Notes under the pieces: model-generated
What the model was told of the DNA's origin: nothing
What the model saw: the letters and a program-made list of their open reading frames with translations, nothing else
Database searches by the model: none
Origin: a virus
Direction: 5' to 3' (one strand)
DNA length: 29,092 nucleotides
IMG/VR virus record: IMGVR_UViG_3300031857_001008
Location: 1-29,092 of that record
In this document: positions 17,845 to 24,614 of the stretch, one piece after another
Numbering within the stretch: the stretch's first letter is position 1
Layout of the letters: every line of letters begins with the position of its first letter
Made by a program: the position numbers and the translations under genes

Positions 17845-17874
17845 TATTTATTTTCCTTATGACCAAGCTTTCGC

Positions 17875-18335: not shown

Positions 18336-20381
18336 TTATCTTTCCAGTATCTTTACTCCAGGCTTAAAAACCCCGGGAAATTTCTTATCCATTGATACTC
18401 TTATAGCTTGTCGTATAATACTACCTGGGTCCCTGTTTGGGTTAGAGTTCCAAGGTGGCGCTCCATGCCTAGTAGAGAAAACTCTATAAGGGTCAGGTTT
18501 ATAAGTAAATCCTACTGTACTAGGTAACAGTGCGTCAGTTACTTTGGCAGAACCTGCGAACGTTCCAGTTCTATTTACCAGACCGGGGCTACCCATTGCA
18601 TCTATGACTTCTTCTCTCAAGGTATCATTTAAAGCAGCTATAATTGATACGGATGTAAAATTACCCGAAGCTTTAGGACTATAAGGGTTATTTAGTCTTC
18701 TGAGTTTTCTTCTTTTTCGGTGTAACTTAGTTTCCTGGGTTACCATGGACTTTGCATTTGTTTGTATATTTCTAAAACTCTCTAAAACTTCTCTTTTTTC
18801 CCTGTCTTGTAATAAAGCTACTTTATTTAAGTCTACTAAATACCTCGGTTTGCTTATATTATGCTTTAAAAACACTCTTTTAGTTACTTTTCTTTTGTCT
18901 AATAAAGTAGCTATTAATTTTTTCTTATCACTAGGCTTCATAAGGGGAGAAAGCATCTCTATTAATTGAGCAGCGACAAACTCACTAAACATAGAGGGAG
19001 ACTCTGTCGTGTATGCTTTAACCTCGCTAACTAGTAATAATATAAAAGCGGAAAAACTTTTGGAAGCGTCAGAAATTTTACTACTTTGATAAGCTCCTTT
19101 TAATTGGTTAAACCTACCATATTCAGCATGACTAACTATTCTTGTGTCGTATTTATATAAAGTAGAAGATTTTCTTGAAGTTACTTCCCCAGGAGTTACA
19201 GACTCTACAACTTGTATTTCTCTAACACCTAAAGCTCTAGCTAATGTTTCGAATGGTTTTATAAGCTTTTCAGCGTTCATGCCCCCCGAAATAGCTATGT
19301 TTTCTAAAGAGTAAGAACCTACTAACTTGTCTATAGCTACGGCGGACTCTTTTTCCTCTAAAAATTTATATGCTTGTGCCAGTACATCCCCGCTAAACTT
19401 TTCATTTGTAAAAGGATTTATACCAGAACTTATTATATCTTTTGTAAGTTCTCCTTTGGCGATAAGATTTGCTGCTTGAACTTTGTCTCCAACAGCATGC
19501 CCAGCGTTTAATTCTACATAAGCGTTAGGATCTAAGGGGGAAAGATCTTGAGTTTCGTAGCTAACGTAGCTAAACACAAGGCCGCCCTCTTTTTTAACCC
19601 ACCCTATATTTCCTTTTATAATACAACTTTCTTTGCCAGGGTTATCTATTCTCAAATAATATTTTTTAGCTGGAACACTATACCCAACAGGATCTTTTAA
19701 AGAAGCAGGAGTATTAGTGGTAAAATAACTCTCAAATTCTTTTTTAGCTTCTTGCTGTGTTTTAATGGTTATATTTTTTGGAATTATAATGTAACGACCA
19801 GGGTCTCCTGGGTTAAACTTTTCTTGCATAGGAGTGCCCATCTCTTTAGGCCTCTCCATAGTAGTATAACCTTCAGAAACTTTTTTAGCTTCTGACTCAA
19901 CAGCATCAAAAGGTCTTACTTTAGCAGATGTAGTTCCTAGTGCTTTATTTAACCTTTGAGTTGTTTCTGCAAATTTACGTAAAGGTAAGTTACCATCCAT
20001 ATAAGAAAGAAAAGAATCATATAATACCCACATAGGGTCTTTTTTGTACCCCTCTGGATTCTCTTTTTCTGCCGCTAAAGCTAGAGGTGCCACTATATCT
20101 TGGAAATAGCTCACGGTGGCTTTAAATGTTCTCTCTTCTGGAACTGCGTTTTTTTGTTGTATATCTTTAATAACTTGTTCTGCTACATCAGCCGTTACTA
20201 CTACACCATCAGCAACTATTATATAGGTATCGCCTCTAGAAGTAGTTTCGGAGCCACTTAATTGATCCATAATTCTTCTAGCAGCCGCGCCTCTACTACT
20301 TGCATTTTTACTTTTTCTATACTGCATTTCGGCGTCTACAATACTTTGTAGCAGTCCTTTTACCTCAATTTCATCAGCCAT
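18336..20381 (-). CDS. 681-residue protein with putative C-terminal neck domain
   Basis: The gene stands where a short (~110-150 residue) HK97 gp10-like head-closure or neck protein is expected, but is several times longer. The last ~85 residues (about 598-681) carry a pattern I associate with such proteins: NRTGTFAGSAKV, then GFTYKPDPYRVFSTR, then RDPGSIIRQAIRVSM. The first ~580 residues are unrecognised. They are Lys/Glu-rich and helical, with a basic stretch (KLHRKRRKLRRLNN near 559-572) and no transmembrane segment. The ATG overlaps the connector stop as TAATG. Codon use is AT-rich with many AGA and TTA codons, unlike the capsid gene. The N-terminal part could be a head-internal or DNA-binding component, or serve assembly; this is open. 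Confidence 0.6.
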   Translation of the reverse strand: MADEIEVKGLLQSIVDAEMQYRKSKNASSRGAAARRIMDQLSGSETTSRGDTYIIVADGVVVTADVAEQVIKDIQQKNAVPEERTFKATVSYFQDIVAPLALAAEKENPEGYKKDPMWVLYDSFLSYMDGNLPLRKFAETTQRLNKALGTTSAKVRPFDAVESEAKKVSEGYTTMERPKEMGTPMQEKFNPGDPGRYIIIPKNITIKTQQEAKKEFESYFTTNTPASLKDPVGYSVPAKKYYLRIDNPGKESCIIKGNIGWVKKEGGLVFSYVSYETQDLSPLDPNAYVELNAGHAVGDKVQAANLIAKGELTKDIISSGINPFTNEKFSGDVLAQAYKFLEEKESAVAIDKLVGSYSLENIAISGGMNAEKLIKPFETLARALGVREIQVVESVTPGEVTSRKSSTLYKYDTRIVSHAEYGRFNQLKGAYQSSKISDASKSFSAFILLLVSEVKAYTTESPSMFSEFVAAQLIEMLSPLMKPSDKKKLIATLLDKRKVTKRVFLKHNISKPRYLVDLNKVALLQDREKREVLESFRNIQTNAKSMVTQETKLHRKRRKLRRLNNPYSPKASGNFTSVSIIAALNDTLREEVIDAMGSPGLVNRTGTFAGSAKVTDALLPSTVGFTYKPDPYRVFSTRHGAPPWNSNPNRDPGSIIRQAIRVSMDKKFPGVFKPGVKILER

Positions 20382-21131: not shown

Positions 21132-23135
21132 TTAGGATGCCTTGTACTTGTACGTTACGCATGAAGTACCAGCAGTGATGATGGAATCCATACCTAGACG
21201 TTGTGAAGCAACAAGTTCACGGTGTTGTAGACCAGGGTAGTAAGCAGACTCTAGTGTAACTCCGCGCATACGAGGCACGATGAAGTTACGTGGGTTTAGA
21301 GCAGCTGCGAACAGCTTGGTTACTGCTTTTGCTGGGAATTCGTCACATAGCATAACTTTGCTGCCGTATACGTTTCCGATTTCACCCGTTAGCTTGATAG
21401 CGTTGCTACCAACTAGGTTCATGTCCTGGAATTCAGGATCTTCTAGAAGATCGAAGTACCCTGTCTGAGATACAATGTAAACTACGTCTGTAGGACGTAC
21501 GCCCCACTTACCCATACCACGGCGAAGTGTCATTAGGTTAGCAGCCGTTAGTTTATCAGTTGCTTCTGCAATTACAGATTGTGTTTCTTTTGAGTTATCG
21601 CGAGCTTGCTCACAGATACCGTCAAAAGATCCAGTTAGAACACCTTGTGTGTGTCCACCTAGAAGCATTGCGTGCTCCACAGAACGTGCGTGTGAGCGAA
21701 TCATTGTTTCGTTGATTAGAGGAAGGATCGCTAGGATCGTATCTTCTTCTGTTTCGTTAGCTAGGTAGCTGATTGAAAGTAGCTTCTTAACGCTTAGTGT
21801 CTTGTTCGTTAGATCAACACCACCGTAAGGAGAACCTACTGTATCGCCGCGCTCAGAAAGAGAACCTTCAGGAGCATCTTTACCTGTGTTCGTGTACGTC
21901 TTAGTAGACACGAATTCAGCGTAGCCAGCGTCAGGTAGGATTGGCATTGCCATCGTTGCTGTCTTCATTTGGATTTCACGGAATAGAGGCGCTAGAACTA
22001 GAAGGTTCTGAATATCGCGCTCGATTGACGTTGAAACCGTATTTTCGTAGATTTCGATTGAAGTAGCAGTAGGAGCGGCAGCAGATGACATAGCATTTGT
22101 TGCTTTTTCTAGAATCTCTTTACCGAACTTGGTACCTTCGAAACCGCCTTTGCCCGTTAGGACAGCGTTTAGAATGTATGCGTTAACTAGGTCGGGACCA
22201 TAGGCCTTTTTCCAATCAACACCAGACTCGCTAGATACAAACGTGCGCTTAGATTCACGTAGGGCAGCTAGGTCCTTGCTACGATCACGTAGGTCGACTT
22301 CTAGGCTTGCGATCTTCTCGTCTGTTGCTGCTGACTTGTCAGCGAAAGTTTTCTTAACTTCTTCTAGAAGCTTTTCTGCACCTGATGCGCCTGCTTTTAC
22401 AGCGACTTCAAGATTTGCAGCTTCTTTAGCTTTAAGAGCAGCGTCGTCATCCTCTGCTTTCTTGCGAGCAGCAGCTTCTTCAGCAACGGCCATTTTTGCA
22501 GCAGCTGTAGCAGCGGTCGCTGCATTTTTAGAAATTTCTTCTAGAAACTTCTTCATTTCTTCTTTATCCATAGTGTTATTTTCCTTAGAAGAGGGCAGTG
22601 CCTCTTGATTACCCGTGTCGGGTAGGGTGGGCACAGTGAGCCCTTTCTTAAACTCGTCAAATTCTTGTGAATTATAAGACTTGACTACTTCGAAAACAGC
22701 CGATTGGTTGGCTGGGATAGAAACAATAGACACTTCGATTAACTCTGCGTCCGTAATTTTTAGTCCGCCGGTTTCTTCCATATAGTCGGCGTCTTTTACT
22801 CTAAATCCTACTGAGAAAGTTTTTAGAATACCTTGCTCTACTAGAGTAGCGACACGGGGATCTGCTTTGCTGATTTCAGCTGTGATCTCGAGCCCTTTGT
22901 CTGTTACTTTAAACTCAGTACCTTTTCCAATAGGATTGTTGTAGTTGTGGTTAAATAGGATTATCGGATTTTTAGTGTAGTTATCCAAACCACCTTTTGT
23001 CCAAGCATCTGGGACAATTACGTCTCCAACTCGATCTACGTCAGAAGTGGAAGCCATACCTGTAACAGTAATAGTATCCTTGCCTTTGGACATAGACTTG
23101 ATCTCGGACAGGACTGTGTATACTTTATACTTCAT
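21132..23135 (-). CDS. Fused prohead protease, scaffold and major capsid protein
   Basis: The single 667-residue frame has three parts. Residues 1-155 are an HK97-type prohead protease (S78/U35): H63 in FNHNYNNPIGK and S108 in TFSVGF are the likely catalytic pair, followed by ELIEVSIVSIPANQ. Residues about 189-300 are Ala/Lys/Glu-rich coiled coil, like the scaffolding delta domain. Residues about 300-667 are the HK97-fold capsid (IYENTVSTSIERDI, then APLFREIQMKTATM, then the C-terminal ALNPRNFIVPRM and GLQHRELVASQRLGMD). HK97 encodes protease and capsid separately. An internal ATG at 22571 with AAGGA upstream could also give a protease-free scaffold-capsid. Arg codons are mostly CGT/CGC, suggesting high expression. 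The start overlaps the previous gene by 11 bp. Confidence 0.93.
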   Translation of the reverse strand: MKYKVYTVLSEIKSMSKGKDTITVTGMASTSDVDRVGDVIVPDAWTKGGLDNYTKNPIILFNHNYNNPIGKGTEFKVTDKGLEITAEISKADPRVATLVEQGILKTFSVGFRVKDADYMEETGGLKITDAELIEVSIVSIPANQSAVFEVVKSYNSQEFDEFKKGLTVPTLPDTGNQEALPSSKENNTMDKEEMKKFLEEISKNAATAATAAAKMAVAEEAAARKKAEDDDAALKAKEAANLEVAVKAGASGAEKLLEEVKKTFADKSAATDEKIASLEVDLRDRSKDLAALRESKRTFVSSESGVDWKKAYGPDLVNAYILNAVLTGKGGFEGTKFGKEILEKATNAMSSAAAPTATSIEIYENTVSTSIERDIQNLLVLAPLFREIQMKTATMAMPILPDAGYAEFVSTKTYTNTGKDAPEGSLSERGDTVGSPYGGVDLTNKTLSVKKLLSISYLANETEEDTILAILPLINETMIRSHARSVEHAMLLGGHTQGVLTGSFDGICEQARDNSKETQSVIAEATDKLTAANLMTLRRGMGKWGVRPTDVVYIVSQTGYFDLLEDPEFQDMNLVGSNAIKLTGEIGNVYGSKVMLCDEFPAKAVTKLFAAALNPRNFIVPRMRGVTLESAYYPGLQHRELVASQRLGMDSIITAGTSCVTYKYKAS
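22569..22586 (-). promoter_or_regulatory. Internal ribosome site and ATG before the scaffold-capsid part
   Basis: The minus strand reads AAGGAAAATAACACTATG, in frame at residue 189. It resembles the site before the tail tube gene (AAGGAAAATAAATAATG). Use of this start would make a 479-residue scaffold-capsid without protease. Confidence 0.6.
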
Positions 23136-23400
23136 TTACAGCCTTAGCCCCTGTTCGTTTAGGAGTCTTTGCCACTTCTGGCGCAACGGACGTTTTTGTC
23201 GCGTTGATCTTTAGCCTTTCCATATGGCGGGCTACAATCTTCATTGCGCGGCCAAAAGTAAGGAAATAAATCTTCATTCTAACAGCTCGGTAAGGAGGGT
23301 TTAAAGCATCGTACTGAGCAGCTGTAATCTCTAGTGGATCAATGTGGTTGCTCAATAGAAATTGTGCTACGTCTCTTGCGACTGCGGCAGGTCTATTCAT
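23125..23400 (-). CDS. Small basic unknown protein between portal and capsid
   Basis: The 91-residue protein starts in a TAATG overlap with the portal stop and ends 11 bp inside the protease-capsid gene, so it is firmly part of the operon. It has NRPAAVARDVAQFLLSNHI at the start, a Pro-Pro-Tyr turn, a helix with FGRAMKIVARHMERLKI, and a Lys/Thr/Pro-rich tail. I do not recognise a family. Its place suggests a head assembly role, but this is only context. Confidence 0.72.
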   Translation of the reverse strand: MNRPAAVARDVAQFLLSNHIDPLEITAAQYDALNPPYRAVRMKIYFLTFGRAMKIVARHMERLKINATKTSVAPEVAKTPKRTGAKAVNEV

Positions 23401-24614
23401 TAGGGTTCTTTCTTAGGCGGTCTTCCACCTTGGCTAGGGTCTGCTGCTGAGCCAGCTACGTTAACTGGAACTCTGACTTTATCCATTTCCGGATCGTCAG
23501 ATTCTTCGAACGCCAGAGTCTTTCTAGCTTCATTTGGAGTAATTACTCCACCGTTAACAAGAGCTACAGCATAATTTGCTTGTTCTTGTAGTTCTGGTTG
23601 TAATCCTGGTATATCGTTGTCAGGGATTAGTTCCCAACCAAAAAATCGTTCGTATCCTCTCATAACCTTATCTACTAGAGGGATAACTGTTTCTATATAA
23701 AAGAGCCTTTGGTTAGGTCTAATATTAGCATTATTACCACCGTCAAGAAGAATAGGAGGGATACCGAGTGTTTTAAGTACCGCATGTTCTTGTTTAATAA
23801 TACTTACTTCGAAGTCTAATTCCTTAAAGTTAGTGTTACTAAGTCTGTCTAGCTCCATACCCCCGTCCAGAATAAGAGGACGCTTGCCTCCATTATTTGG
23901 CGAGTAGGCATTTAACCAGCTCTCTATCATCTTCTCTTTTAGCTTCTCGCTTAAAGAATTTGGGGACTTTAATATAAGACCAGGAATTGCGCCATTCTCA
24001 AAGAACTTATCCTGATACTTAATCATGCGCCATAAAAGAACCATAGAGCTTTTAGCGGAGCTTAACCTTGATACACCTCTGTACACGCCACGAATAGAGT
24101 TATCTTTAATATGTATAACTTCATCGGCGGTGTAGTTAATTTCCCCCATCTTGTACCCTTTTATATAGACCCTAGGATCGGTTAAAATGGATACTAAGTG
24201 AGCGGGTAGGTGGTAAAGGTGTACGCCATCAAAATAAATAAAAGCGTTACCGTCTATTATAAGATCTGTATAGATAAGTCTGCGAAATGTAGAAATATCT
24301 TGAAATGGGTTGGGCTCAGAATTCAGCAGCTTTTCAACACGAGCTTTTTTAGTGCCTTTAGCTACTGGCATGTCCTGCCCAAGTCTGTCATCATCTACGA
24401 TAATATCAATCTGGGAAGCCGCGTCAACTACCATGTTTACTGCGCGGTTAACTACACCTAGTTGTTCGTAGTATGTGTAATAATTATTAGGAGCTGGGTC
24501 TACATTTGTGCTCTCTTGTTGAGCTATATAACGTTGACCTGGATTTAGTTTCTCTACCACACGAGGAGTAAACATGCTAGTGAACGTTTTTAAGATCGAT
24601 TCTTCTCTAGCCAT
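23400..24614 (-). CDS. Portal protein, HK97 family
   Basis: The 404-residue product has the HK97-type portal pattern: a short N-terminal arm, NRAVNMVVDAASQIDIIVDD (near 55-74), GNAFIYFDG (about 117-125), then ADEVIHIKDNSIRGVYRGVSRL (split near 165-186) and the long wing/stem helices. Later parts include LDGGMELDRLSNTNFKELDF, VLKTLGIPPILLDGG and NEARKTLAFEE. Twelve copies would form the vertex channel for packaging. The ATG has AGGAG 4 nt upstream and overlaps the HNH gene by 25 bp. Confidence 0.94.
   Translation of the reverse strand: MAREESILKTFTSMFTPRVVEKLNPGQRYIAQQESTNVDPAPNNYYTYYEQLGVVNRAVNMVVDAASQIDIIVDDDRLGQDMPVAKGTKKARVEKLLNSEPNPFQDISTFRRLIYTDLIIDGNAFIYFDGVHLYHLPAHLVSILTDPRVYIKGYKMGEINYTADEVIHIKDNSIRGVYRGVSRLSSAKSSMVLLWRMIKYQDKFFENGAIPGLILKSPNSLSEKLKEKMIESWLNAYSPNNGGKRPLILDGGMELDRLSNTNFKELDFEVSIIKQEHAVLKTLGIPPILLDGGNNANIRPNQRLFYIETVIPLVDKVMRGYERFFGWELIPDNDIPGLQPELQEQANYAVALVNGGVITPNEARKTLAFEESDDPEMDKVRVPVNVAGSAADPSQGGRPPKKEP

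Follow-up and report, generated by a model that had tools for sequence, protein, structure and literature searches.

The 29,092-base sequence analysed here (the window) is the record of an uncultured virus. One of its genes joins a prohead protease, a scaffolding region and a capsid protein in a single frame. This gene very probably gives rise to two nested, co-assembling products, and very probably descends from a T5-like pair of adjacent genes in which the start of the second has been retained. The nested product, a delta-capsid protein free of protease, is strongly supported by sequence comparison. The features concerned are:

21132-23135, minus strand: fused protease-delta-capsid gene (667 aa, 72.2 kDa), one frame without a stop
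22680-23081, minus strand: S78 prohead protease domain (residues 19-152; H63, S108, E134)
22572-22679, minus strand: variable linker, modelled with low confidence (residues 153-188), in which the internal ribosome site lies
22576-22587, minus strand: TAAGGAAAATAA, Shine-Dalgarno region of the internal start, with AAGGA 10 nt ahead of the ATG
22569-22571, minus strand: ATG of the internal start (M189), close to where separate T5-type capsid genes begin
22104-22571, minus strand: delta scaffold region (residues 189-344; helices 191-247 and 253-294)
21135-22103, minus strand: capsid protein core with a T5 pb8-like HK97 fold (residues 345-667)
23125-23400, minus strand: 91-aa ORF overlapping the start of the fusion gene, placed as the small ORF in the portal/protease gap of Vibrio T5-like phages
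23400-24614, minus strand: portal protein gene
17848-17859, minus strand: identical TAAGGAAAATAA ahead of the tail-tube gene start (17844)

The product of the fusion gene is an S78 prohead protease followed by a helical delta scaffold and a T5-type capsid protein of the HK97 fold. A sequence-only reading of this DNA had placed protease (H63, S108), scaffold and capsid in one frame; domain and profile matches, invariant residues and predicted helices all bear this out. Residues 19-152 match Pfam Peptidase_S78 (PF04586; E = 4e-15, 56.7 bits against a cut-off of 21), and the protein scores 66 with TIGR01543, above the cut-off of 59. H63 and S108 line up with H65 and S114 in HK97 gp4 and show no variation among 27 fused relatives. 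The capsid part matches the solved capsid proteins of T5 and DT57C (profile E = 1.4e-84), which are also the top folds in Foldseek; its match to Pfam Phage_capsid falls under the cut-off of that family. NCBIfam NF045541, a protease/capsid fusion family, gives 53.5 bits over residues 55-276 only and misses its curated cut-off of 525. In the predicted model, residues ~140-190 have very low confidence; they are followed by long helices (191-294) and then by an HK97-type capsid fold (mean pLDDT only 62). The protease is predicted to remove the delta region. The delta/capsid boundary at 344/345 would correspond to the mature end of T5 pb8, from which it is carried over by alignment.

The same reading had singled out the ATG at 22571 (residue 189) for an upstream site like that of the tail tube gene. 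The leader of M189 is TCTAAGGAAAATAACACT and that of the tail-tube start is CATAAGGAAAATAAATA; the 12 bases common to both are indeed present, though they are not significant within the window alone. The anti-Shine-Dalgarno (anti-SD) energy of the M189 site is -6.0, within the range of the window's own gene starts, as calculated with an anti-SD sequence that may not be the host's. Because 12% of the 385 other same-strand ATGs in the window score as well or better, the site is unremarkable there. The window sequence alone cannot decide the matter, and significance has to come from conservation across relatives. It is this conservation that rules against a chance origin of the site, which within the window does not beat the 12% background.

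Eighty unique fused relatives with 43-97% identity were taken from a viral contig collection; they are the best 80 of 573 candidates, are not independent, and in 70 cases came via search patterns situated outside the junction. No relatives of the fusion gene were found in a scan of bacterial genomes, and a DNA search of named phages for near relatives gave none. Every one of these best 80 of 573 has an in-frame ATG no more than 12 residues from where the border is expected, and its anti-SD energy is -5.4 or lower. Elsewhere in these genes, -5.4 is reached by 7.3% of internal ATGs and by 4.0% of windows of equal width. The mean energy at the junction is -6.65, compared with -2.8 after synonymous codon shuffling; control internal ATGs show no such excess (-1.9 observed, -2.1 shuffled). 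The AGGAA motif occurs in all three codon phases, for example TCT AAG GAA AAT (SKEN), TCA AGG AAA AAC (SRKN) and GCG AAA GGA AAA (AKGK), and is mostly 6-10 nt from the ATG. There are 50 distinct leaders, 18 of which differ from one another in at least 8 of 22 positions. In two relatives (L011 and L035) the methionine picked automatically is a neighbouring upstream one and not the one that best fits the family; both have Shine-Dalgarno-like leaders. The use of all three codon phases, together with the drop on synonymous shuffling, means that nucleotides and not the peptide are conserved, and amino-acid conservation is ruled out as the cause in this lineage. Selection on an internal start at the capsid border is strongly supported by this comparison. 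The internal start that had been proposed at 22571 is thus supported, as a start codon and Shine-Dalgarno sequence conserved across divergent relatives.

A different reading of the gene is that only the full-length chain is made. Every subunit would then bear a protease, to be cut later in cis or trans, and the ATG would be a relic of the old border. The continuous single frame agrees with this, and proteases on all subunits would fit by volume: 775 protease domains are estimated to fill about an eighth (~13%) of the interior of a T5-size shell, with an assumed radius of 33 nm. In phage P2, gpO places a protease on every scaffold chain, and this is tolerated. The dose problem of a 1:1 fusion, which the internal start had been said to solve, is by the same estimate and precedent softer than claimed. 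A relic would decay, however. The start is instead kept in all of the best 80 of 573 relatives, behind a variable linker, in several codon phases and beyond synonymous expectation, and it is kept again in a second lineage. The full-length-only reading is accordingly highly improbable, and the two-product reading is preferred.

The fused chain seems to be kept as well. Linker sequence and length vary and the position of the methionine shifts over ~27 residues among fused relatives, yet the linker has no stop or frameshift in any of the best 80 of 573; that it stays open despite its varying length argues for retention of the longer product. It could be supposed that the two parts are joined in frame by accident, with the shell built by the short capsid protein and the fused chain serving as a mere free-standing protease. 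Such a link is indeed absent from T5 and from those members of the PAJU2 lineage whose genes are split (described below). Loss of the link is only one mutation away, however, and the 80 variable-length linkers remain unbroken, so an accidental link is very unlikely. In seven relatives (L003, L006, L009, L011, L013, L035 and L036) a further 330-400 residues precede the protease. The longer genes, of ~980-1036 aa where measured, are four-part head genes; in L003 and L011, the two that were scanned, the extra part contains a phrog_2859 stretch and a Hva1_TUDOR-like domain. These genes provide an internal negative control: a comparable start is found at the border between extra domain and protease in only one of the seven. 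A start is thus kept specifically at the capsid border.

From terminase through portal, small ORF, protease-capsid, head completion and tail terminator to tail tube, the genes of the window follow the order seen in T5-like Vibrio phages. T5 and the Vibrio T5-like phages (Demerecviridae) share this order and have homologous protease (43-51% identity) and capsid (34-36%) proteins. In these phages, however, the two proteins are encoded by separate adjacent genes, 3-17 nt apart and with a stop between them, whereas the window and its 80 relatives have one frame. The T5-like capsid gene starts ~4-10 residues from the position aligned to M189. In the protease tree, the fused clade is sister to the T5-type split genes (96/93); a branch (94/88) separates the fusions of this lineage as one group, at a distance from the PAJU2 clade. 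A single origin of all fusions is not favoured, since the window clade joins the T5-type split proteases and not the PAJU2 clade; long branches make the deep joins unsure. Most likely, the fusion arose from a T5-like adjacent gene pair by loss of the protease stop codon, and the downstream start was retained by selection. This is also the simplest account of the origin. A 681-aa ORF at 18336-20381 of the window has no Pfam or PHROG match; T5-like phages have a neck or tail-completion gene of ~250 aa at that place.

In the proposed mechanism, ribosomes starting at 23135 would make the 72-kDa (72.2) protease-delta-capsid chain, and ribosomes starting at 22571, by way of the Shine-Dalgarno sequence within the linker, would make a 52-kDa (51.6) delta-capsid chain. 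The short chain would be equivalent to the whole product of the separate T5 capsid gene. Both chains would co-assemble through the delta and capsid parts which they have in common, and because these parts are common the fused chains, themselves subunits of the procapsid, would bring the protease inside it. The enzyme would then cut off the delta domains near residue 344/345, and probably itself also.

The proportion of the two products is less easily predicted. In the fused lineage, the mean Shine-Dalgarno energy is -7.35 at the first start versus -6.71 at the internal start, and only in 22 of 73 is the internal one the stronger. In the window there is little between them (-5.7 and -6.0, with an anti-SD that may not be the host's). 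In the PAJU2 lineage the internal site is the stronger in 41 of 51. As the internal Shine-Dalgarno sequence of the fused lineage is not stronger than the first, an excess of short product is not demonstrated by this measure, and Shine-Dalgarno strength is unsupported as its source. Such energies predict abundance poorly: NBSal005, a T5-like phage with split genes, has a better score at the protease start (-9.3) than at the capsid start (-6.6), though capsid protein is presumably more abundant. Many free and few fused capsid subunits would be a plausible outcome. Within the protease region, a promoter or a processing site could yield a short mRNA in which 22571 is the first start, and so raise capsid above protease. 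This would account for abundance despite equal Shine-Dalgarno strengths, and there are two weak promoter-like matches at 23003-22960 on the coding strand; however, such matches are no commoner than in shuffled sequence (12 vs 9.6). We regard an internal promoter as unlikely. It would need the same internal start, and hence would modify the two-product account and not replace it.

Nested head proteins have a precedent in phage lambda. In lambda C/Nu3, a protease is fused to an assembly protein and an in-frame internal start gives a protease-free C-terminal copy. The lambda protease belongs to a different family, and the nested product is scaffold only, the capsid protein E being separate. Like C/Nu3, the window lineage has a start and ribosome site at the edge of its protease, conserved in 80/80 (the best 80 of 573); unlike in lambda, the nested product of the window would be the whole delta-capsid protein. 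The nested protease-free product of C/Nu3 goes back to Shaw and Murialdo (1980, Nature 283:30), as cited in PMC8508860. Protease-capsid fusions as such are already known from the PAJU2 record, from NF045540 and NF045541, and from Pseudomonas phage MD8 (PMC8508860). A term search of the MD8 paper (PMC8508860) returned no mention of an internal start, and no description of one in protease-capsid fusions was found in the open-licence literature. The two combined, with the capsid protein nested inside its fusion to the protease, appear to be undescribed in that literature.

Fusions of the PAJU2/JLK-2012 type ('prohead protease fused capsid protein' in the record) resemble that of the window in having S78 protease, delta and capsid parts and a border ATG with a Shine-Dalgarno sequence. 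They differ in that the capsid part has no significant similarity and the protease lies elsewhere in the tree. The border ATG is found in 60/60, and 85% are at or below -5.4 compared with 22% of other internal ATGs. Synonymous shuffles of this set already average -6.96, so that much of the signal is due to constraint on the amino acids; the peptide itself favours GGAGG codons, which leaves a smaller synonymous excess. One of the six collecting patterns was at the junction, and many members are without that peptide. The lineage is split near the same point in seven contigs, in Moraxella phages Mcat7 and Mcat9 and in Stenotrophomonas phage SOVA965; the protease tree forces at least four changes between fused and split states. 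In SOVA965 (L026) the capsid gene, which is 63% identical to the PAJU2 fusion, is annotated as two overlapping pieces behind a separate protease, possibly owing to a frameshift or sequencing error.

MD8 gp5 (NF045540; PMC8508860) also holds protease, scaffold and capsid protein in one gene, but its protease is of the ClpP type. Fusions of this type have a conserved border ATG, with GAGGAA, AGGAG or AAGGA ~8 nt upstream in the relatives read. This lineage probably keeps an internal start too; the evidence is weaker because the residues encoded around the site are conserved as well. In the PAJU2 and MD8 sets, conserved amino acids may still account for the signal.

Taken across lineages, we lean towards the view that tailed phages acquired protease-capsid fusions on more than one occasion and that each lineage kept the capsid gene's own start. 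The fused genes would have two products, with the protease as a minority subunit, and their single-product annotation (NF045540, NF045541, PAJU2 and MD8 types) would be incomplete generally. A phage could attach an enzyme to the structural protein it makes most of, and yet not have the enzyme on every copy, by retaining the old ribosome site inside the gene. Building the maturation protease into the shell as a capsid subunit would be an alternative way to package it, and the arrangement also suggests a natural design for two-level display. The prediction can be tested for many annotated fusion genes, including those of the cultured phages PAJU2, JLK-2012 and MD8. Thermoanaerobacterium phage THSA-485A was left out as a further fusion lineage because the rest of its protein could not be identified as a capsid protein. 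This 661-aa protein (L024:2468-4453) has a prohead-protease-like N-terminus, and directly past the protease part there is a very strong ribosome site, AAAGGAGGT, with an ATG at residue 162.
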